From IMG/VR virus record IMGVR_UViG_3300030450_001894, positions 1 through 31,885 of that record: 31,885 nt of DNA. One strand, 5' to 3'. Below, in pieces: positions 5,404-31,864 of this stretch. This DNA comes from a virus. Position numbers and translations under genes: made by a program. Numbering within the stretch: the first letter of the stretch is position 1; each line of letters begins with the position of its first letter. Below the pieces are notes generated by a model. The model saw only the letters and a list, made by a program, of their open reading frames with translations, was not told the origin of the DNA and did not search any database.

Positions 5404-5446
5404 ACTATTCACATAACCAATATACTACATAATTTTATTATGTCAA
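5404..5446 (-). promoter_or_regulatory. Sigma70-like promoter and possible operator of the early operon
   Basis: On the minus strand TTGACA (5441-5446) and TATATT (5419-5424) are 16 bases apart. Directly downstream is GTTATGTGAATAGT (5404-5417), which is repeated exactly beside the promoter of the amidoligase operon (30525-30538). An AAAGAGTTAAA block lies further upstream at 5472-5482. A shared operator or activator site is inferred. Confidence 0.65.
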
Positions 5447-5589: not shown

Positions 5590-6609
5590 TTAAAATTCCT
5601 CAGTAATTTTTAAATTAATATTAAAAGTATCTAAAGCTACTTGTTTCATGCTTAAAGAATCTTGATCAAATCTAGCAAAAATATGATCTGCTTCTGAATT
5701 ATTTCCTGTGCTAGTGTTATCTACTGAAAAAATAAAAGGCAAATGCTTTCCATTAGTACGATTCCAAACATCTTCTATAATTGCATCATCACTTAAATTA
5801 GAGGCATCCATTTCATTAGGCATAATATCTGTACTTGCTAAATAACTAAAGTTCATATTAAAGCTCATTCGACCTCCATAAGTTTTATTAGAATAAGATT
5901 CTGTATTAAATGGGCTTTTAGTTGTTGTTGTGCTTTCTCTACCATAATTAACCATAGTAGAATATCTTTGACCTCCTAAAGATTCAGATTGAATTACTTT
6001 ATCAAATTCAATACTTCTTGTTAAATTTAAATCCGGAGCATGAGGCATATCATAATATTCCCCCACTAAAATACAACCAACAAATAGGTTATCACTTCCA
6101 TCAAATGCACTAGCTCCCTCAAATTGTATTCCAAAATATCTATCATCTGTTTCATCAAAGGTTATAATAGTATGACCATCTGTAGCTGGTTCAATTATAC
6201 TGCTACTAATACTATCTGCGTTCATTACTTCAACTGGATTAGCCAATACAGTACCACTTCCTAAATCAACATCATCAACATTAGTTAAAGTATCATTTGT
6301 TCTTATGTGTACTTTAGCATTTGCTGTTTTCATATTATGATTTAAAATTGCAACAAAATTTTTTTTAAATGTACTTGTGTTAATATTGACCATAACATGA
6401 TCACTAGTTGCCGAACTTGTATTAAAAGTAACTTTATTTAGTGGTCTTAAATCAAACAACTCTGCTTCTGATCCAGTTACAAATGTCCCCATAAAACCAG
6501 ATCCAGTTGGTTTAACATCAAGATTTCCATCTTGAGTCATCCCCCTACTTAATAAATATGCTGATATATCTGTATAAAATCTTGGTGTTCTTATATTTTG
6601 ATTAGCCAT
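5590..6609 (-). CDS. Virion structural protein, probable tail-tip component
   Basis: A 339-residue beta-rich protein, last gene of the structural operon, right after the large hub-like gene. N-terminus NQNIRTPRFYTDISAYLLSR; many serine, threonine and asparagine residues, no membrane segment or signal. AAGGA precedes the ATG. Position and composition fit a distal tail or baseplate protein. No enzyme motif seen. Confidence 0.55.
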   Translation of the reverse strand: MANQNIRTPRFYTDISAYLLSRGMTQDGNLDVKPTGSGFMGTFVTGSEAELFDLRPLNKVTFNTSSATSDHVMVNINTSTFKKNFVAILNHNMKTANAKVHIRTNDTLTNVDDVDLGSGTVLANPVEVMNADSISSSIIEPATDGHTIITFDETDDRYFGIQFEGASAFDGSDNLFVGCILVGEYYDMPHAPDLNLTRSIEFDKVIQSESLGGQRYSTMVNYGRESTTTTKSPFNTESYSNKTYGGRMSFNMNFSYLASTDIMPNEMDASNLSDDAIIEDVWNRTNGKHLPFIFSVDNTSTGNNSEADHIFARFDQDSLSMKQVALDTFNINLKITEEF

Positions 6610-6619
6610 AATTAAATCC

Positions 6620-8929
6620 TTATGAAATTTGCCTTGCTTTTATTTTTAATTTTCCTCTACTTCTTGAGGTATTAATAATCATAAAATTAATATTAGCCCA
6701 ACTTCCAGAATTATAACCAAAAGGAGTTTCTGGAAACATATTACTATTATCAAAAGCAATAATTGAACCTACTTCTAAATCATAAAAAGCAGGATTAACC
6801 GCTGTAAAACTTATTTCTAATTTTATATCTCCAAATAAATTATAATAATAGCTAATAAAGGTTTGTAATGTTCCAGCATCATATTCTACATCATTAGGAT
6901 TTTTAACATAATCTAAAGTAAATGTTTTAATATTTTCTTTTGTTCCTATATTATATTTAGTTCTGTTTGCATCAACTTTATGAGTTTCTTGTTTTCTTCT
7001 ATCTGATACAGATGGAGAGGGATGCCTTCCAAAATTAACTACCATACTTGTAATTACTTCATTAAAATTTGTATGATTTAACTTAACATTTGCTATATCC
7101 ATTTTAGTTAAAGTTGTAATTTCACTAGAAGAATATGAATCTTTTACATAAATGTATTGTGGTTGAGTAGAGTCTCCTTGTTTATACCTAAAAATAAAAC
7201 ATCCTTCAAATTGCATTTGTTCCAAAACTGATTTTAAATCTTTTTCTTCATTAATCCATACTCTAACATCCCAATCACTTCTATTACTTTCTAAACTACT
7301 CCAACCATCTATATTAGTAGCTGGATTTGTAGCTACATCTAAACCAGTAAATCTATTTAATAAGTCTAAATGTGCTGTATGTATATCTAATGAATCACTA
7401 CTTGCTAACCCTGTTGTACCAGCAGATAAGCCATCATTAGCTATATATAATGTTTTTGGAGGTTCTTTTTCTTCTCTACTCGCAATAACCTTAACATCAT
7501 AAATTTTAAAACTTCCAGCGGTAGAACCAGCAGAACTGCCATCCCAAACCATAGCAAGATAAATTTTACCTCCATTACTTGAAGAATATGGAATTTGTAA
7601 ATTATTTTTAGCAATATCTGCTGTTATAGCATCACTAGTATAATTTTCTGATGGGTTTCCTACAGCAAATATTACTGAGCCTCCATCTGTTGTTTCATCC
7701 CATTCATAACTAATATCTAATAAATTAAGATTTTTAGTTACATATATTTCCTCATCATCAGAATGAACAATAGCTGTAGTATTATATCTTCCTCTTTCTA
7801 CTGTTAATGTGTGTTTACCACTACTTACACTCCCCACATTAGTAATCGTCATGATCTCTTCTTTTAATTTAATAACTGAACCAGCAAAAATATCATTTGT
7901 GCTAAACCCAGTTGCAATTTTAAAAGTAGTTGCACTAGCATTAAATCCACCAGAATCATCAACTAAAATTCTCAATCCATCAGAATCAACAACTTTTTTA
8001 AAAGATTCATCTCTTTCTGGCATATTAATATCAAAAACATATATAGCAGTCAATAATGAACTTGTACTGCTAGTAAACTGTGCATAAGTATTTACATCTG
8101 CATCTAACATATTTTCAGTATTTGATGCTGTAATTCCAGAATCTAATTGATATTGGGTTACTGTGTTGGGTCTAACTGCAAAAACATGCCTACAAGAGGG
8201 GTCTATTTTTGCATGATTGGCATTATCTGTACTTACAGTTGAAGAAACACCATCTAATAAGGGAATTAAAACATTAAATTGCTCATTATATATTGCTAAT
8301 TCTCCATCACTAGATGCACTATTTGCATTTACATATATAGCAAAATTATTATCTATTTTATTAAATTCTACTGGTCTATATGAATAAGATGTTAAAGATG
8401 TTGTTGATTGAGGACTAGCAAAAGTAGAGGCTGAATTTTTAGTATAATTTCCATAAGCAACAGGAATTATTTTATTTTTATCAGTAGTCCTAGTATTTGG
8501 AATAGTAATTTTATCCCACGCTCTATGAGAGTTTAGTTTTATATTAATTTTTATACCATCTGTATCTATTTCAGAGACTCTAAATGAGCCAATTTTAACA
8601 GGAGTATCATTATTTATTATTGAATGAATAGTACATTCTCTATTTATATAGGTATTGCTTCCCCCAAACAATTCTTTGCTTATAAGAGATGATCCATTAT
8701 ACTGAAAATCTGGAATAGTTATGCTTATTCCACTTGTAGTAGCTGTACTTGCTGATAAATCAATATTTTCTCTAATGGCTGGATTATTTAAAATTACTCC
8801 ATGATAAAAATTGGAATTATATTCTATGTTGCTAAATGCTAAGTAAATAAAACCACTATTATTATTTGACAATGCAAAAAGCCAGTTTTCTTTAATATTG
8901 CTTAATTTTATTGAATTTCCAAAAGCCAT
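6620..8929 (-). CDS. Tail-tip hub / large tail protein
   Basis: A 769-residue beta-rich protein directly after the tape measure, where siphoviruses encode distal-tail and hub (Dit/Tal-like) proteins. The N-terminal 180 residues have alternating strands (GSFRVSEIDTDGIKINIKL) and the C-terminal third (from about 540) contains WDVRVWINEEKDLKSVLEQM and VNFGRHPSPSVSDRR, which resembles hub domains. No lysozyme or peptidase motif seen. GGAAG lies four bases before the ATG. Probably forms the tail tip and contacts the receptor-binding apparatus. Confidence 0.6.
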   Translation of the reverse strand: MAFGNSIKLSNIKENWLFALSNNNSGFIYLAFSNIEYNSNFYHGVILNNPAIRENIDLSASTATTSGISITIPDFQYNGSSLISKELFGGSNTYINRECTIHSIINNDTPVKIGSFRVSEIDTDGIKINIKLNSHRAWDKITIPNTRTTDKNKIIPVAYGNYTKNSASTFASPQSTTSLTSYSYRPVEFNKIDNNFAIYVNANSASSDGELAIYNEQFNVLIPLLDGVSSTVSTDNANHAKIDPSCRHVFAVRPNTVTQYQLDSGITASNTENMLDADVNTYAQFTSSTSSLLTAIYVFDINMPERDESFKKVVDSDGLRILVDDSGGFNASATTFKIATGFSTNDIFAGSVIKLKEEIMTITNVGSVSSGKHTLTVERGRYNTTAIVHSDDEEIYVTKNLNLLDISYEWDETTDGGSVIFAVGNPSENYTSDAITADIAKNNLQIPYSSSNGGKIYLAMVWDGSSAGSTAGSFKIYDVKVIASREEKEPPKTLYIANDGLSAGTTGLASSDSLDIHTAHLDLLNRFTGLDVATNPATNIDGWSSLESNRSDWDVRVWINEEKDLKSVLEQMQFEGCFIFRYKQGDSTQPQYIYVKDSYSSSEITTLTKMDIANVKLNHTNFNEVITSMVVNFGRHPSPSVSDRRKQETHKVDANRTKYNIGTKENIKTFTLDYVKNPNDVEYDAGTLQTFISYYYNLFGDIKLEISFTAVNPAFYDLEVGSIIAFDNSNMFPETPFGYNSGSWANINFMIINTSRSRGKLKIKARQIS

Positions 8930-13846: not shown

Positions 13847-14067
13847 GCTTCTGCCTCTGGTCTTATTGGGTTATCAATTATATCTATTTCTAAACTTTTT
13901 ATCATTTCAATTAAATCTATTAGCATTTCTTTTTCCTCATAACATTGATTATCTATAATAATATTTGTTAAATCTAAATGCTCTGCTATTCTTTTGCATT
14001 TTACAATAATCTCAAAAGCATTAAAATCTGTATCTAGTGTTGTTGCTATTTCTGTGATCTTTTCCAT
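13843..14067 (-). CDS. Small acidic hypothetical protein
   Basis: A 74-residue helical acidic protein overlapping the phosphoesterase by 22 bases and the neck gene by four bases. One CKR and one CYE cysteine only. No family recognised; the tight coupling implies a role with head-tail joining. Confidence 0.55.
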   Translation of the reverse strand: MEKITEIATTLDTDFNAFEIIVKCKRIAEHLDLTNIIIDNQCYEEKEMLIDLIEMIKSLEIDIIDNPIRPEAEA

Positions 14068-15104
14068 GTTAAATAATCTGCCGCTTCATGTGGGTCAAAA
14101 ATTGTTGTTATTAATCTATTGTCATCATCTCCATATTTAGGATCAATTATTGTTACAGGACAATTAAATATATTTTTATCATCTAAGCCGTTTCTTGTAG
14201 CATATTCATCCATCCTCTTAAAACTTCCTACTTGTAAGGCATGAGAAATTAACCCAGAACTGGGGTCTTTTAAAACTTGATAACCAGAAACATGTATATG
14301 TCCCGCTGTTAAAATGTGATCTCTCCACCCCATTTGAATTGCTCTACTAATAGCATGAGCAGTATTCCACATTGAATGTCCCTTAAACTGATGCCTTGCA
14401 TTAACCCTTACTTGCTTTTTATTAGGAAATTTTAAATTGATTCTTACTCCATGATTTGAATAAACTGTTTCACTATTTCTAATAATAAACTCTAATGGGT
14501 CGCCATCTCCAGACCATACATCATGATTCCCCCCTACTAAATAGAGCCATTCTAAACTTTTCACAAAATGCTCTGAAAGCATCCATGATTCTTTTGCTGT
14601 GGTAGTTTGATTTGCATATAACCTAGCCAATCTTCCTATCCAGTTGTTTTGTATATCTCCCAAATTACCAGCAAACATTCCATCAGTTTTATTAATTAAA
14701 TTTGTAATAGAAAATATTTCAGATAAATCTGTTCCATCATCATCAACATGAGGATCACCAAAATGGGCAATTCCTATAGCTCCATCTATATTTATATTTA
14801 TATTTACTATTTTTTCATAAAAATCTCTTTTTTGTTTTACCTTAAATTTTTTAACTCTATATTTAATTAAATCCTCAATATCCATCTCTTTATTAGGAGG
14901 AAATTTTTCTTGATTAAAGTCTTTATTATATATAATATTTGTTTTTACACTTCTTCTTTTACAATCTAAACAACTATATCTCTGTTTATCATATTGAGTT
15001 CTTCCATTTTTATGTATTCTAATAGAATTACAATAAATACAGCTTAATATGTTTTTATCTTTATCATATATTTTAGAACCTTTCTCTTTGGGAGTTACTT
15101 GCAT
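14046..15104 (-). CDS. Zinc-ribbon metallophosphoesterase
   Basis: A 352-residue protein in two parts. Residues 20-52 form a zinc ribbon (C22, C25, C45, C48; CIYC...YSCLDCKRRS) like those of IS1 InsA-type transposase N-termini. Residues 110-300 form a calcineurin-like phosphoesterase with GDPH (116-119), GNLGD (146-150), GGNHD (191-195), H238 and GHIHVSG (268-274), so all metal ligands seem present. A nucleic-acid phosphodiesterase is likely. It is oddly placed between endolysin and neck genes; the ATG lies in the end of the endolysin gene. Confidence 0.8.
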   Translation of the reverse strand: MQVTPKEKGSKIYDKDKNILSCIYCNSIRIHKNGRTQYDKQRYSCLDCKRRSVKTNIIYNKDFNQEKFPPNKEMDIEDLIKYRVKKFKVKQKRDFYEKIVNININIDGAIGIAHFGDPHVDDDGTDLSEIFSITNLINKTDGMFAGNLGDIQNNWIGRLARLYANQTTTAKESWMLSEHFVKSLEWLYLVGGNHDVWSGDGDPLEFIIRNSETVYSNHGVRINLKFPNKKQVRVNARHQFKGHSMWNTAHAISRAIQMGWRDHILTAGHIHVSGYQVLKDPSSGLISHALQVGSFKRMDEYATRNGLDDKNIFNCPVTIIDPKYGDDDNRLITTIFDPHEAADYLTWKRSQK

Positions 15105-22701: not shown

Positions 22702-24252
22702 TTAATCTCCATAAATCCACTCCATTTTTTCCCTAGACCTTTTTACTTTCCCTGCTTTATCAACAAAAATCATTTTTGATCTATTTAACACAACTGAATA
22801 CCCAAGCTCTTCCCCATAAGCACCATCAAGACTTTTATTTATATGAATTAAATCAATCTTTTTATGGACTGCATAAGAGCCAACATCTTGTAAGTGATTA
22901 TACTTACCTCCATATTTAGGATTTAAATACTCTCCCATTCTAAAAAACTCTCCACTGCTCAAGCCTTTATCTTTAACAATATTTCCAACTAAAGAATTTC
23001 TTTCAGCTTTTAACATAGCTTCAACATCTGTAAAATTTGCAGTTTTTGATCCATTTTGCATGGTAAATTTAACTATCCAACCATTAGGATTTCCTAATTG
23101 TTCTGGCGTTCCTCTAGCGTATCCATTAGCTGTGGCAATAGATTCTCCTCCTTTTGTTCTAGGATTTGCACAGTAAATCCCATCCCCATAATAACCTTTT
23201 CCGCTATATGTATCTTTGCTTTTAAAATAAGATTCAGCAGATTTTTTATCAACATTAATACCCCTGTAATATACATCCCCATTACCCTCTGTTCTTAGTA
23301 TTTTATTAAATTCTTTATTAGTTACTGATTTAGGTTTTTCCCACATCCCTTCATCTTTTAAATATTGTTTAAGTAAAAAATTTTGTCTACCTATATCACT
23401 CCCCCCTGTAATAGCTTCATTAATACTCCATATCATATTATCATACATGTCCTCTAGTGTATCACTTGCGAAATCTGGATCAGTATATATTTTATAATAT
23501 GCTTTTTTTGCTAACTCTGGATTTTTTTGATAATTATCTAAAAAAGTTTTAGAATGTTTTAGTCTTTCAGCTTGATTTGCTTTTGTTACATCATAAGGAG
23601 AATCAGCTATACTTTTATTATATGCTATATCATCTAATCTTGCTGTTTTAATTGCCTCATCAAAAGATTTATTTCTTGCTCTAGTATTTTTTTCTAATTG
23701 AGTGAGCTTCTTTTTCTTTACTTGTTTAGGTTTAGGAGTTGGTTTCTTAACTGGAACTGCTTTTTTAACTGGAATTGGCTTCTTCTTTTTTCTTAATAGT
23801 GGTTTATCTAATCCTTTAGCTGTATAATTAGCTGGAATTAATTGACATCTACAATTATATCTGCATATACTAAAACCAGATTGAGGTAAACCAACTGTTT
23901 GCCAGAACTCAAGAGAGTCTACTTGTCCCTGTCTAGGTTCACAATCTGCACAAACTTTAGTATCCCCCACACTCTGCCATCTAAATTGTTTAATCCCTGC
24001 TTTTGTAAAAGTTGCTCTGGATGAGTTTCCAGCGGATATACCTACTCCAGTCTTAACAGTATTCTTTATTTGGTTTCTATAATTTCCAAATATTCTTCCC
24101 CCAGTTTTAAGATCATTTAGCAAGACATTCTTAATAGCTTTATTATCCATGCCAGATGCATTCATAGTAGAGACTAACTCTTGTAGGGTCATAGTAGTTT
24201 CTCCAGCAATAGTGGATAACTGCTCTCCTATAGTGATAGTCATGTTAGGCAT
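22702..24252 (-). CDS. MuF-like head protein fused to an ADP-ribosyltransferase-like domain
   Basis: A 516-residue protein. Residues 1-140 are MuF-like: a helical start, FRWQSVGDTKVCADCEPRQG (C101, C104) and CRYNCRCQLIP (C130, C134, C136). A lysine/proline linker (152-182) follows, then a helical part. Residues 325-495 look like an ADP-ribosyltransferase: YYRGI with R330, GKGYYGDGIYCA (351-362), and EELGYSVVLNRSK (481-493), where E481 or E482 may be catalytic. MuF proteins line the portal and can be injected, so this could deliver an effector into the host. The canonical STS and ExE motifs are not clear. Confidence 0.7.
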   Translation of the reverse strand: MPNMTITIGEQLSTIAGETTMTLQELVSTMNASGMDNKAIKNVLLNDLKTGGRIFGNYRNQIKNTVKTGVGISAGNSSRATFTKAGIKQFRWQSVGDTKVCADCEPRQGQVDSLEFWQTVGLPQSGFSICRYNCRCQLIPANYTAKGLDKPLLRKKKKPIPVKKAVPVKKPTPKPKQVKKKKLTQLEKNTRARNKSFDEAIKTARLDDIAYNKSIADSPYDVTKANQAERLKHSKTFLDNYQKNPELAKKAYYKIYTDPDFASDTLEDMYDNMIWSINEAITGGSDIGRQNFLLKQYLKDEGMWEKPKSVTNKEFNKILRTEGNGDVYYRGINVDKKSAESYFKSKDTYSGKGYYGDGIYCANPRTKGGESIATANGYARGTPEQLGNPNGWIVKFTMQNGSKTANFTDVEAMLKAERNSLVGNIVKDKGLSSGEFFRMGEYLNPKYGGKYNHLQDVGSYAVHKKIDLIHINKSLDGAYGEELGYSVVLNRSKMIFVDKAGKVKRSREKMEWIYGD

Positions 24253-28007: not shown

Positions 28008-28604
28008 TTATACTTTGTAAGTTAATTTATCTCCATGCTCTTTTACAATACCTCTTAAAATACAATCTCTAAGAAATACAGCCTCTGATTCTGTTTTTAA
28101 ATCCAGCTTACTTCTTAGCTTAACTAACTCCATATAATCTTTATTAGTGGGTGCTAGTTCCCCATCAAAGAATCTCATATGAAATACAATCTTGTCTGCT
28201 GTGTCGGTGTGCTTTCTGCCATCTACAATAACATTAAATAACACCTTACTATCATCTATATCCCAATAATAGAGGCTTTCCTCTATATGATGTGTAGGTC
28301 TTCCCCAGATATAAACCTTAACTCTAACTCCTCTTAAATCTTCTAGTGTGATGCTACGCTCTTTTCTGAAATACAAGCTCCCTTCTCCCTCTAGTCTATC
28401 TAAGTTTAATAAAGTTTTATTGTTTATCTGATAAATTTCCCCATAAACAGAACTTCCCTCATTCATAATAGCCGCTGGAAATCCATATCCAGTTTCTATC
28501 AATGTTAATTCTGGAAATAAAAAGTGCTGAACAAATTTAGAATCTTTTAAATAGTGATGGTTATGTCCCCCCATCTTTAAAGTACCATATACAAATACAA
28601 ACAT
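28008..28604 (-). CDS. Gamma-glutamylcyclotransferase / AIG2-like protein
   Basis: A 198-residue protein. The N-terminal VYGTLK (5-10), VYGEIYQI (53-60) and LDRLEGE (68-74) with likely catalytic E72 define the AIG2/GGCT fold, which releases 5-oxoproline from gamma-glutamyl amines or amides. The C-terminal 100 residues are extra to the core. AAGGAGATAAA at the end of the preceding gene is its ribosome site. Together with the two genes upstream it forms the amidoligase/GATase/cyclotransferase set, where it might trim a gamma-glutamyl group. Confidence 0.8.
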   Translation of the reverse strand: MFVFVYGTLKMGGHNHHYLKDSKFVQHFLFPELTLIETGYGFPAAIMNEGSSVYGEIYQINNKTLLNLDRLEGEGSLYFRKERSITLEDLRGVRVKVYIWGRPTHHIEESLYYWDIDDSKVLFNVIVDGRKHTDTADKIVFHMRFFDGELAPTNKDYMELVKLRSKLDLKTESEAVFLRDCILRGIVKEHGDKLTYKV

Positions 28605-28608
28605 TATT

Positions 28609-29496
28609 TTATCTCCTTATAGTTGATCCATCATTAGCTAAATACTTTTTAAATAATTCTCTCTGTTTATCCTTCCAAGAGTATCTAGGAACAAAATTAG
28701 ATACTGTTTTTTGATATATTCCTAAGTCCTTATTATAGTAAGATGATTTCTTTTTAATTGGTTGTGTAATAGTGATAGTTTTAGTTCTTCTAGATAATGT
28801 TCTAGTGTTAATCCTCATCATAGTATTTGCTTTAATGCTTATCGGCTCATATATGCCCCAATTCCCTGCATTAATTATAACATTGGTACTTCCATAGACT
28901 ATGACATCTAGCTCTGAAATATAAACCATTTCTAATGGGTTATTAGCTTTAACAATATACACATAATTTGGATACTCTAAATCTGCCCAAACAATAGCAA
29001 CTCTACCCCTAACTAATGGCAATCTATTTTCTGAAAAATCTTTTGCAGATTGCGATGTTTCATATAGTCTAAAAATAGCCTCAGAATCCACTTGAGCATA
29101 TCTTTCCATCTCAAACTTACTAAAAAGCTCTTTGTGATTATGTATAGAGCCATTATGAGTACCTATAGTATTTCCTGCCCTTATTGGATGATTATTTTTA
29201 TTTATACTAGGAGAGCCTAAAGTAGCATATCTAGTATGACCCATTAAACAAGTGATATTTTTTGTAATAGAATCAATATTATTATCTACTTGATCATCTT
29301 CTAGGAATCTGTAAGCATCTTGATTCTTTTTACATAATAAATAATCCCCATGTTTATCTATCATAGCAAAGCCCGTTGCATGTCCACCTCTACTATCTGC
29401 CTCTATAAGCATTTCTTTAAAAGAGCTAGATATTTTTTCTAGCTCTTTTTTTGTTCTATCTTTTTGTTTTAAAATAATTCCTGCTAATCCACACAT
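28609..29496 (-). CDS. Class II glutamine amidotransferase
   Basis: A 295-residue protein with Cys2 as the N-terminal nucleophile (MCGLAGI), SRGGHATGF (35-43), GHTRYAT (86-92), NNHPI (101-105), GTHNG (112-116) and DSE (137-139): an intact glutaminase domain as in GlmS and PurF. No synthase domain follows, so ammonia is probably passed to a partner, the amidoligase encoded immediately upstream. GGGAG precedes the ATG. Confidence 0.85.
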   Translation of the reverse strand: MCGLAGIILKQKDRTKKELEKISSSFKEMLIEADSRGGHATGFAMIDKHGDYLLCKKNQDAYRFLEDDQVDNNIDSITKNITCLMGHTRYATLGSPSINKNNHPIRAGNTIGTHNGSIHNHKELFSKFEMERYAQVDSEAIFRLYETSQSAKDFSENRLPLVRGRVAIVWADLEYPNYVYIVKANNPLEMVYISELDVIVYGSTNVIINAGNWGIYEPISIKANTMMRINTRTLSRRTKTITITQPIKKKSSYYNKDLGIYQKTVSNFVPRYSWKDKQRELFKKYLANDGSTIRR

Positions 29497-29497
29497 T

Positions 29498-30496
29498 TTA
29501 ATTACTCCCTACATTATTAACTATTTCTGAATAATATCTTGATGTTGCTCTTCTTAACTCTTTTCCTTGAGTATTCATAGCTTTAAATCTTTTTAAGATT
29601 TCTTTATTAGCAAATGCTGTTTCTTCACATTGTTGATCTTGCCCTATGAAACCAATAGCTCTTCTGAAATGAAACAAACCATGCTCATTAGATTGAACAG
29701 TAGTGAATTTAACTGTTTTTGAATCTCTTGCTGAGTTCACGATTGCTTGAGTTAAAACAATCCATGCCCATAATTTATTAAAATTTAAAGTTCCTTGATG
29801 ATAACGAAACTCTACAGAACCCCTAGTCCAAATATTTCTAAGATTCAAACCACAGTATCTAGTGTTCTGAGTTTTTCTTAATCTATGAGTTGCATTAGGT
29901 CTTCTATATTTATGATCTACCTCTGATTTAAGATTTTTTAAAACTCTTTTAGCTATCCATTTTGCTGACATGTCAAAACCTCTTCCACCAGCAAAAATTG
30001 CTCTTGCTGGAATAGTCCACCAACCATTTCCAACTCTCATTAGCCTTGATGGAGAAATTAATCTATAGATAATGTTCTCATATTTTAAAACAGTTTTAAT
30101 AAGTCTGTTAAGAAATGATGTTTCATATTCTTTACTTATCATCATTTCAGCAGTAACATCATGATGAACATGAGTCCCACAACTTATATTAACAGTACAG
30201 CCTAAATCATTCATAAGTTTTAAAACAGTTTTTAACTGCCTCTTACCATCTTGACCATATAACTTAGGAGATACCATCTCATTTCTACCTAATTGAGAGT
30301 TATTTGTAGCTCTTACAGTACAATCCGGAACTATCTTCCAATAAGTAGAAGTATTATGATTATATCCTTCTACATAAGTAACAACATCTCTTAATCTTAG
30401 TAGTTCTGCAATTCGCTCTTTAGATACATTTGCTGGTCTTGAAAACTCTAGCTCTACTCCGAATGCTTTGTCGTTTTGAAATTTACCTTTTGTCAT
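29498..30496 (-). CDS. Amidoligase (COOH-NH2 ligase, GCS/glutamine-synthetase fold)
   Basis: A 332-residue protein from the ATG at 30496 (GGAGCAA upstream; a TTG at 30508 lies in that ribosome site). GVELEF (13-18), WKIVPD (53-58), NEMVSP (72-77), CGTHVHHD (106-113) and VEFRYHQGTLN (228-238) match the phage/bacterial amidoligase family (PF12224-type). It should activate a carboxylate with ATP and join it to an amine. It leads an operon with a GATase II and a cyclotransferase. The substrate is unknown. Confidence 0.85.
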   Translation of the reverse strand: MTKGKFQNDKAFGVELEFSRPANVSKERIAELLRLRDVVTYVEGYNHNTSTYWKIVPDCTVRATNNSQLGRNEMVSPKLYGQDGKRQLKTVLKLMNDLGCTVNISCGTHVHHDVTAEMMISKEYETSFLNRLIKTVLKYENIIYRLISPSRLMRVGNGWWTIPARAIFAGGRGFDMSAKWIAKRVLKNLKSEVDHKYRRPNATHRLRKTQNTRYCGLNLRNIWTRGSVEFRYHQGTLNFNKLWAWIVLTQAIVNSARDSKTVKFTTVQSNEHGLFHFRRAIGFIGQDQQCEETAFANKEILKRFKAMNTQGKELRRATSRYYSEIVNNVGSN

Positions 30497-30524
30497 GTCT
30501 TGCTCCAATATTTAATATTTAATA

Positions 30525-30568
30525 ACTATTCACATAACAATACTACTGATCCCAGCGGATAGATGCAA
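30525..30568 (-). promoter_or_regulatory. Promoter and possible operator of the amidoligase/structural operon
   Basis: On the minus strand TTGCAT (30563-30568) and TAGTAT (30540-30545) are 17 bases apart. GTTATGTGAATAGT (30525-30538), identical to the block beside the early promoter, follows the -10 box, and AAAGAGTTAAA (30577-30587) lies upstream as at the other promoter. Confidence 0.55.
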
Positions 30569-30600
30569 GAACTTTCTTTAACTCTTTAATTTTTTTTTAT

Positions 30601-30632
30601 AAGGGTTTGCCTACTAGGTAGAATCCACCCTT
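30601..30632. repeat. Imperfect inverted repeat
   Basis: AAGGGT (30601-30606) pairs with ACCCTT (30627-30632), with CTAC/GTAG pairing inside. Beside an A/T-rich run. It may belong to the terminator region between the glycosyltransferase and the amidoligase operon. Confidence 0.4.
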
Positions 30633-30647
30633 TAGTACACCATTAGG

Positions 30648-30692
30648 ATACTACTTGAACCCATATTTAGCTTTTTAGGGTCTAAGTAGTAT
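30648..30692 (-). terminator. Strong inverted repeat after the glycosyltransferase gene
   Basis: ATACTACTTGAACCC (30648-30662) and GGGTCTAAGTAGTAT (30678-30692) pair at 13 of 15 positions around a 15-base loop, starting four bases after the glycosyltransferase stop codon. No T run follows on the minus strand; termination, RNA processing or dimer binding are all possible. Confidence 0.6.
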
Positions 30693-30696
30693 ATTA

Positions 30697-31539
30697 TTAC
30701 ATTTTAGTAGGCAATTTTACAAGTCTCATTCCATAATTATTAATTCTATCTGGAATATTTAAGTTTTTTTTCATAATTAATTTATTATTTTTAAATGGAT
30801 TATAATTTACCTCATGTTGCCATCTACCAAATTTTCTTTTTATAGTTACTATTTTTGGATGTTGTTTTTGTAGTGATTGAGCCATTTTCAATCTACCATC
30901 CTCTATTTCATATAAATCCTCAGTATTTCCACCGCTCATGGTCATAGTAGTTGTTTTATCTCCCATAAAAATATTAAATAAAATAGTACAATAGCCATCT
31001 TTTAAAATTCTAATAGATAAATCTGTATCTTCATTATATTTACCTCTCCATCTATACTTAACATCATTAGACAGTAGAATCATTGAGTAAACTCTAGTAT
31101 TTAAGGTAAATGGAGGTCTTCTAGAACTATAAGGATTAACAAAAGCCATATAATTTAATCCTGCCATTGGAACATTTTCATATCTATCTACAAAGTCCTC
31201 TGAACATCTTAGGAATGATCCAGTCCCTAGAGCTAATCTTTTATTATTATTAAGTCTGTAAAAAGTGTTTATATTATCATCAAATATCCAATGTTTTTTT
31301 GCTCCTAGTTTTATGCTATGCTCCCAGACCCAATTTCTAGCAGGAATACTTCCTTGCCCTAAATTCCTAAATGGTAAGACTAATATTTTATCTGGATTAA
31401 TTGTTGTGCAATAATTGTCATATTCTTGAGGCTCTATAACAATTTTATATGAAACTTTGATTTTATCAAAATTCCTAGCTGTTTTTGGATTGTCCCATCT
31501 TCCCTTAGATATTATATAAATCGGGTATTTAGGACTCAT
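30697..31539 (-). CDS. TET-associated-type glycosyltransferase
   Basis: A 280-residue GT-A-fold glycosyltransferase. I prefer the ATG at 31539 (MSPKYPIYI) because GAGG lies six bases upstream; ATGs at 31545 and 31551 are possible. ISKGRWDNP (10-18), EPQEYDNY (36-43), GQGSIPARNWVWEH (61-74), WIFDDNI (84-90) and NEDTDLSIRI (169-178) match the TAGT family (PF20691-type), known from phages that glycosylate hydroxymethylated bases made by TET/JBP enzymes. No TET/JBP or base-hydroxymethylase gene is present here. The overlap with the upstream gene suggests joint expression. Confidence 0.85.
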   Translation of the reverse strand: MSPKYPIYIISKGRWDNPKTARNFDKIKVSYKIVIEPQEYDNYCTTINPDKILVLPFRNLGQGSIPARNWVWEHSIKLGAKKHWIFDDNINTFYRLNNNKRLALGTGSFLRCSEDFVDRYENVPMAGLNYMAFVNPYSSRRPPFTLNTRVYSMILLSNDVKYRWRGKYNEDTDLSIRILKDGYCTILFNIFMGDKTTTMTMSGGNTEDLYEIEDGRLKMAQSLQKQHPKIVTIKRKFGRWQHEVNYNPFKNNKLIMKKNLNIPDRINNYGMRLVKLPTKM

Positions 31540-31801
31540 CTTCATCCTCATTTACATATAAATACTCTTTAGGGCTAAAATCTTTTTTAGGATAATTAAT
31601 ATATTGAGTTTTTTCTGTTATTGTTTGATCAATCAGTTTAGCAAATTTTTCTTTAGCCTCTTTTGTTAATAAATGTAGTTTAACTGTTAAATATGGTTTT
31701 ACATCTTCATTTTTAAACTCTGGCATATTTTTCCAATGTTTATTCCAATGGTTAAAATCATCCATATTTTCAAATAATGATTCTTGCTCTTTTTTACTCA
31801 T
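31529..31801 (-). CDS. Small conserved phage protein (WKxMPEF type)
   Basis: A 90-residue acidic protein. NHWNKHWKNMPEF (17-29), TVKLHLLTKEAKEKFAKLI (39-57) and ITEKTQYINYP (61-71) follow a pattern I recall from phage proteins beside DNA-modification genes ('W..MPEF.q....p...i.v.f.t.ed...Fa.lig..it.kTksiwyP'). No catalytic residues evident. GGAGCGG precedes the ATG. Overlaps the glycosyltransferase, hence a partner or specificity factor is plausible. Confidence 0.65.
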   Translation of the reverse strand: MSKKEQESLFENMDDFNHWNKHWKNMPEFKNEDVKPYLTVKLHLLTKEAKEKFAKLIDQTITEKTQYINYPKKDFSPKEYLYVNEDEDES

Positions 31802-31824: not shown

Positions 31825-31864
31825 ACGCATTTTTCAGTAATTATTCTGGTTTTCCCAAACAATT
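31825..31864. repeat. Terminal direct repeat, right copy
   Basis: Identical to 1-40. It lies just upstream of the first gene of the rightmost operon, so if circular this region leads straight into 1-302. Confidence 0.9.

Follow-up and report, generated by a model that had tools for sequence, protein, structure and literature searches.

An accessory amidoligase, amidotransferase and cyclotransferase gene unit beside an exchangeable glycosyltransferase in a small tailed phage

Introduction

Three adjacent phage genes that encode a glutamine synthetase (GS)-like amidoligase (AMD), a class II glutamine amidotransferase (GAT) and a gamma-glutamyl(amine) cyclotransferase (GGCT) raise the question of what a phage gains from making and breaking amide bonds, and whether it does so in concert with the TAGT glycosyltransferase encoded next door. 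The three genes (here, the trio) lie on the minus strand, at 28008-30496, of the window, that is, the whole 31,885-nucleotide stretch of viral DNA analysed (IMG/VR record IMGVR_UViG_3300030450_001894). Predictions of amidoligase cassettes in phages date back to 2009, and the literature searched yielded no biochemical test of their substrate. The examples known from LUZ24/tf/UFV-P2, phiEco32 and RIO-1/PSA-HP1 go back to Iyer 2009 and Hardies 2013 (cited by PMC5498523 and PMC10580990; also PMC3890496). Here we examine the trio and its surroundings in related phages, which are referred to by locus number (L).

Results

The locus lies in a complete phage genome

The window is a complete circular phage genome of about 31.8 kb, because its ends overlap by 40 nt (1-40 equals 31825-31864) and because the relative L002 reads through the junction of its ends. 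Terminase, portal, capsid, tape measure and tail spike genes identify a small tailed phage. The genome also encodes a metallophosphoesterase-like DNA repair exonuclease (14046-15104, phrog_7339), apparently with an InsA-type zinc ribbon joined at its N-terminus. In its minor-head (Mu F-like) protein (22702-24252), the long C-terminal region differs wholly from that of L003 (7793-9046), which suggests that the tails of these proteins are exchangeable between phages.

Table 1. Positions of the trio and flanking features in the window
Feature	Position	Strand	Family or remark
GS-like amidoligase (AMD), 332 aa	29498..30496	-	PF12224, phrog_2443 amidoligase
Class II glutamine amidotransferase (GAT), 295 aa	28609..29496	-	PF13522
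Gamma-glutamyl(amine) cyclotransferase with C-terminal extension (GGCT), 198 aa	28008..28604	-	PF06094
GGCT C-terminal extension, residues 113-198	28008..28268	-	Conserved; without known family
Conserved non-coding leader between TAGT and AMD	30509..30696	-	Aligned with L002 and L003
TAGT glycosyltransferase, exchangeable neighbour	30697..31539	-	PF20691, E=1.4e-42
90-aa partner ORF of TAGT	31529..31801	-	Homologues at TAGT loci

Within the trio, gaps of only 1 and 4 nt separate the genes. A Shine-Dalgarno-like sequence (ggag, gggag, aaggag) precedes every start; for AMD a TTG start at 30508 can also be read, and the ATG at 30496 has the better site. Comparison of the window with L003 gave dN/dS values of 0.29 for AMD, 0.14 for GAT and 0.20 for GGCT, and the reading frames are therefore under purifying selection. 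The leader upstream of AMD aligns with the corresponding DNA of L002 and L003 and is a possible promoter region; searches of it found no promoter signal above chance and no tRNA or Rfam element. A Bacteroidota-type promoter (TTG-N20-TAnnTTTG) upstream of the L003 AMD was considered as a host clue and set aside, as it is not enriched in the window. Likewise, the motif TTATGTGAATAG, common to the regions upstream of AMD and upstream of the gene that begins at 5412, occurs at chance level when two mismatches are permitted. As a further host clue, GTDB genomes offered only distant amidoligases, at 28-36% identity.

Three enzymes with conserved catalytic residues

AMD matches Amidoligase_2 with E=1.3e-20 and 74.7 bits (curated cut-off 22) and belongs to the PHROGs amidoligase family. 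Its E15xE17, H109xH111 and E229xR231 residues are invariant in 18 sequences, G107-H109-H111 forming a GxHxH motif, and the order of the three motifs (ExE, GxHxH, ExR) is that of FGPEPEF, NGSGMHCH and RIEVRF in GlnA when the two are compared by eye. An AlphaFold2 model of AMD (pLDDT 89, pTM 0.91) has GS, GmaS, GshF or Dop structures as all of its top 18 PDB matches; the best solved folds, which include gamma-glutamylmethylamide synthetase and glutamine synthetases, are matched at borderline E-values (best E=1.7e-3, just above 0.001; TM 0.2-0.44). At the level of sequence, AMD has no significant similarity to E. coli GlnA or PuuA, and no match to a solved structure was found.

GAT matches GATase_6 with E=5.4e-16, above the curated cut-off, and the glutaminase domain of GlmS in a profile comparison (7e-25). 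Residues C2, H87-T88-R89, T92, N115-G116 and D137 are invariant among relatives (18-19 sequences), and the catalytic Cys2 and the glutamine-binding residues line up with GlmS, in which we take the latter to be R73, N98-G99 and D123. By these residues, GAT is a predicted class II glutamine amidotransferase with glutaminase residues of the GlmS type.

GGCT matches the GGACT family with E=1.6e-21 and 77.5 bits (curated cut-off 22.8), and its AlphaFold2 model matches human GGACT (3juc, 3jud and 3jub, the matches including the E82Q mutant entry), with a Foldseek probability of 1.00 to 3juc and 3jud. The Y6-G7-x-L9 motif and E72, invariant in 19 sequences, align with the GGACT motif, and E72 occupies the position of the catalytic glutamate (E82 in human GGACT), where the profile alignment places an arginine in E. 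coli YtfP. Beyond this fold, the GGCTs of all trio loci found through AMD have in common a C-terminal extension of about 85 residues, in which V140, R144, F146, D147, Y157, M158, R164, E174 and F177 are invariant in 19 sequences. The extension has no Pfam match, and its matches in PHROGs are weak, for example that of the L114 extension to the uncharacterised phrog_35003 (E=0.006).

On the combined strength of motifs and predicted folds, the three enzymes look catalytically competent. The initial annotation, made from the letters of the window, had named these same enzymes, described their catalytic motifs as seemingly intact and proposed a tightly packed operon; the family profiles, all above curated cut-offs, the absence of any substitution of catalytic residues in 18-19 relatives and the short gaps with their Shine-Dalgarno-like sequences agree with it on each count.

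The trio is kept together as a unit

A search with the AMD alignment recovered about 20 loci with the fixed order AMD-GAT-GGCT, which is kept across terminase identities down to 55%. An independent search of IMG/VR, anchored in the GGCT extension, recovered 33 loci (about 22 distinct sequences, since some of the GGCT proteins are identical), and in all 33 the extension is fused to GGCT, so that the idea of a free-standing domain was rejected. GAT lies upstream of GGCT in 32 of these loci, the remaining contig starting only 540 bases upstream, and in the compact layout AMD is present wherever enough upstream DNA is available; in L294-L297 GAT and GGCT are set apart by several intervening genes. 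In the pair L098 and L110, whose terminases are 99% identical, AMD and GAT are only 48% and 59% identical; the block has therefore been exchanged, yet all three genes are present in both phages. AMD, GAT and GGCT thus form one selectively kept accessory unit.

In more distant phages, GGCT accompanies the amidoligase more often than GAT does, and in Phage C75C1 GAT and GGCT are fused. The fusion supports joint action of the two proteins, and together these arrangements suggest that gamma-glutamyl chemistry is the core of the system and ammonia supply an aid to it.

A cargo hotspot next to the terminase genes

Replication-type genes on one side and terminase genes on the other bound the hotspot that houses the trio and also gathers DNA-modification genes. 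Upstream of AMD there are C5-cytosine methylases in L107 and L110 (and, encoded on the opposite strand, in L111-L113), an N4/N6 methylase in L108 and, by resemblance, L276, and genes for a dUTPase, a thymidylate-synthase-like protein and a dCMP deaminase in L101 and partly, by resemblance, in L109 and L271. In L114, L116 and L117 the trio is found in another genome setting. A gene resembling Pyr_excise, of the pyrimidine dimer glycosylase family (phrog_624), is absent from the window and stands beside the trio in several relatives (L098 10122-10610, L019 10905-11417, L023 14396-14863 and also L110).

In many phages related through their terminases (67-82%) no trio is present in the region that can be seen, in records that may be fragments; in L189 and several others the hotspot is contiguous and filled by other genes, and the longer records of terminase-close relatives that were checked contained no AMD or GAT match in a search that detected its positive controls. 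The trio is therefore dispensable accessory cargo, and its reading as part of a core phage gene set was rejected, so many terminase-close relatives being without it near TerL.

The glycosyltransferase is an exchangeable neighbour

TAGT matches its Pfam family above the curated cut-off, and the initial annotation had taken its proximity as a sign of one pathway with the trio. The distribution of the two speaks against this. Nine trio records of 21-48 kb are without TAGT in a search in which five records, including the window genome, were positive; the trio is absent at most of about 80 TAGT loci; and the near relative L189 (terminase 86%) has no trio but has kept a TAGT-like gene. Furthermore, in two close pairs TAGT has been swapped at the same place for C5-cytosine methyltransferase genes with the trio homologues kept: L098 has a TAGT cassette at 6057-7435 and L110 a C5-methylase cassette at 6066-7882, and a corresponding swap of cassettes separates L106 (5926-7897) from L107 (6090-7884), the terminases of which are 94% identical. 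The disappearance of neighbouring genes from close relatives had been named beforehand as grounds for refutation, and it divides the original claim: the trio stays together in the 33 loci found through the extension, its tie to the glycosyltransferase is broken in close relatives, and the trio as a whole proves accessory. TAGT is an exchangeable neighbour and not part of the trio. The swaps with C5-methylases do hint that TAGT itself may act on DNA in the swap-pair phages.

TAGT has associations of its own. A homologue of the 90-aa ORF, which has no Pfam family, lies directly upstream of TAGT or near it in 74 of about 81 IMG/VR loci, and in Aeromonas and Vibrio phages translations show it fused to the N-terminus of TAGT; in L019 a methyltransferase lies between the two. 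A nucleotide-sugar epimerase gene adjoins TAGT in 13 of the about 81 loci, including L023 (10831-11697), L105 and L106.

These observations bear directly on a DNA hypermodification reading, in which the trio and TAGT would add an amide-bearing group to phage DNA. TAGT does adjoin the trio, and where the trio is close to the terminase genes, a DNA-modification or nucleotide gene almost invariably precedes it directly upstream. Against this, no TET/JBP dioxygenase, hydroxymethylase or thymidylate-synthase-like protein was found in the complete window genome, despite the presence of TAGT; the trio persists with TAGT, C5-methylase, N4/N6-methylase or dUTPase/thymidylate synthase cargo alike and has no adjacent DNA-modification cargo in L114, L116 and L117; and relatives without the trio hold similar cargo in the same hotspot. 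We regard this reading as improbable.

Discussion

It is informative to compare the trio with the better-known cassettes of LUZ24-, phiEco32- and RIO-1-like phages, in which the same three enzyme types are accompanied by ATP-grasp and COOH-NH2 ligases and are proposed to alter peptidoglycan (PMC5498523, PMC11945000). As in those cassettes, a PF12224 amidoligase is followed by a class II amidotransferase, and GGCT belongs to the cluster as well; the initial annotation, which likened the genes to phage systems predicted from comparative genomics, is in this sense well founded. Nevertheless, the window trio differs from the LUZ24 and RIO-1 cassettes in consisting of three genes only, in the C-terminal extension of GGCT and in lying on the terminase side and not with replication genes. 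LUZ24-derived profiles for the ATP-grasp and COOH-NH2 ligases had no match, nor was any such Pfam family present in the 46 other proteins of the genome. With these two parts absent, we keep the trio apart from the full cassette; by gene content it is a minimal variant of a known cassette type. The differences also bear on whether the trio serves strictly in peptidoglycan modification and superinfection exclusion, amidating or re-linking the D-Glu/DAP wall peptide of the host in the way put forward for LUZ24, phiEco32 and RIO-1. The same enzyme types and the LUZ24 gene order favour such a role, and the missing ligases, the different location and the fact that the model is itself a proposal count against it; we consider it possible but on balance somewhat unlikely.

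Partial versions of the trio occur elsewhere. Arthrobacter phages Ottawa and Salgado have an amidoligase-amidotransferase pair in the same AMD-GAT order, at about 30% identity, and differ in having no GGCT annotated beside it; in Bacillus 031MP004 and Geobacillus GR1, AMD and GGCT are close together as in the window, and there it is GAT that is not annotated nearby. The Puu pathway of E. coli works in a comparable manner, with the GS-fold ligase PuuA making a gamma-glutamyl amide and the hydrolase PuuD removing it; as noted above, PuuA has no significant sequence similarity to AMD. To our knowledge, PuuD falls outside the class II Ntn enzymes.

With these comparisons in mind, we favour the reading that the trio is an accessory unit for making and breaking gamma-glutamyl or carboxamide bonds on the host cell wall or host metabolites, to which we give a probability of roughly 55%. 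GAT would convert glutamine to glutamate and ammonia by Cys2 Ntn-type chemistry, AMD would use ATP to activate a carboxylate, most likely that of a glutamyl group, and condense it with this ammonia or with an amine, and GGCT would release gamma-glutamyl groups as 5-oxoproline through Glu72, either stripping a host modification or reversing and editing the AMD product. A host cell-wall peptide or soluble gamma-glutamyl compound seems a likelier target than phage DNA, because no base-hydroxylating enzyme was found in the genome and the trio persists with every DNA-modification cargo seen. The unit, placed in the cargo hotspot by the terminase genes, would work without its exchangeable DNA-modification neighbours, and the benefit to the phage might be host takeover or the hindering of competing phages. 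Some observations pull the other way: the borderline fold match of AMD and its lack of significant sequence similarity to GlnA and PuuA, the many related phages that do without the trio, and a hotspot rich in DNA-modification genes, which makes a DNA-related or counter-defence role possible.

Counter-defence would mean that the trio makes or destroys an amide or gamma-glutamyl signal or modification of host immunity. The status of the trio as accessory cargo, rapidly exchanged within a hotspot that also contains DNA methyltransferases, would fit such a role, as would the dN/dS of AMD, which lies above that of the structural genes; we know of no defence with such chemistry that was matched here, and consider the idea unlikely.

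It is also worth considering that the trio might serve auxiliary nitrogen and amino-acid metabolism, feeding ammonia and glutamate into host biosynthesis. Hosts have high-flux enzymes of their own for this supply, and the strict three-gene unit would be left unexplained. Such a role has been claimed for Phage-ZRK32, the genome of which has amidoligase, amidotransferase and cyclotransferase genes and a preparation of which is reported to promote growth (PMC10945688). However, the case is weakened by the cassette DNA of that phage (L004, OP650935.1), which matches Pseudomonas phage SCYZ1 with 84% identity over 96%, an identity on account of which the assignment to a planctomycete host deserves to be checked. 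This metabolic role appears to us highly improbable.

A bolder reading is that the three proteins form an autonomous GS-type amidation complex, supplied with ammonia, that would alter a gamma-glutamyl mark carried by a host molecule, with the extension fused to GGCT as its binding or assembly module. We hesitate to press this proposal, which is speculative and unlikely; if it is true, the complex would represent a counter-defence or wall-editing chemistry not described biochemically. The conserved extension may mark the complex or its substrate. In this phage lineage the cassette is cut down to three genes, which recombination leaves together. Separated from the glycosyltransferase and from its DNA-modification neighbours, the trio becomes a compact and well-defined set for expression and assay, and the natural swap pairs L098/L110 and L106/L107 allow phages to be compared in which the trio is kept and the neighbouring cargo differs.
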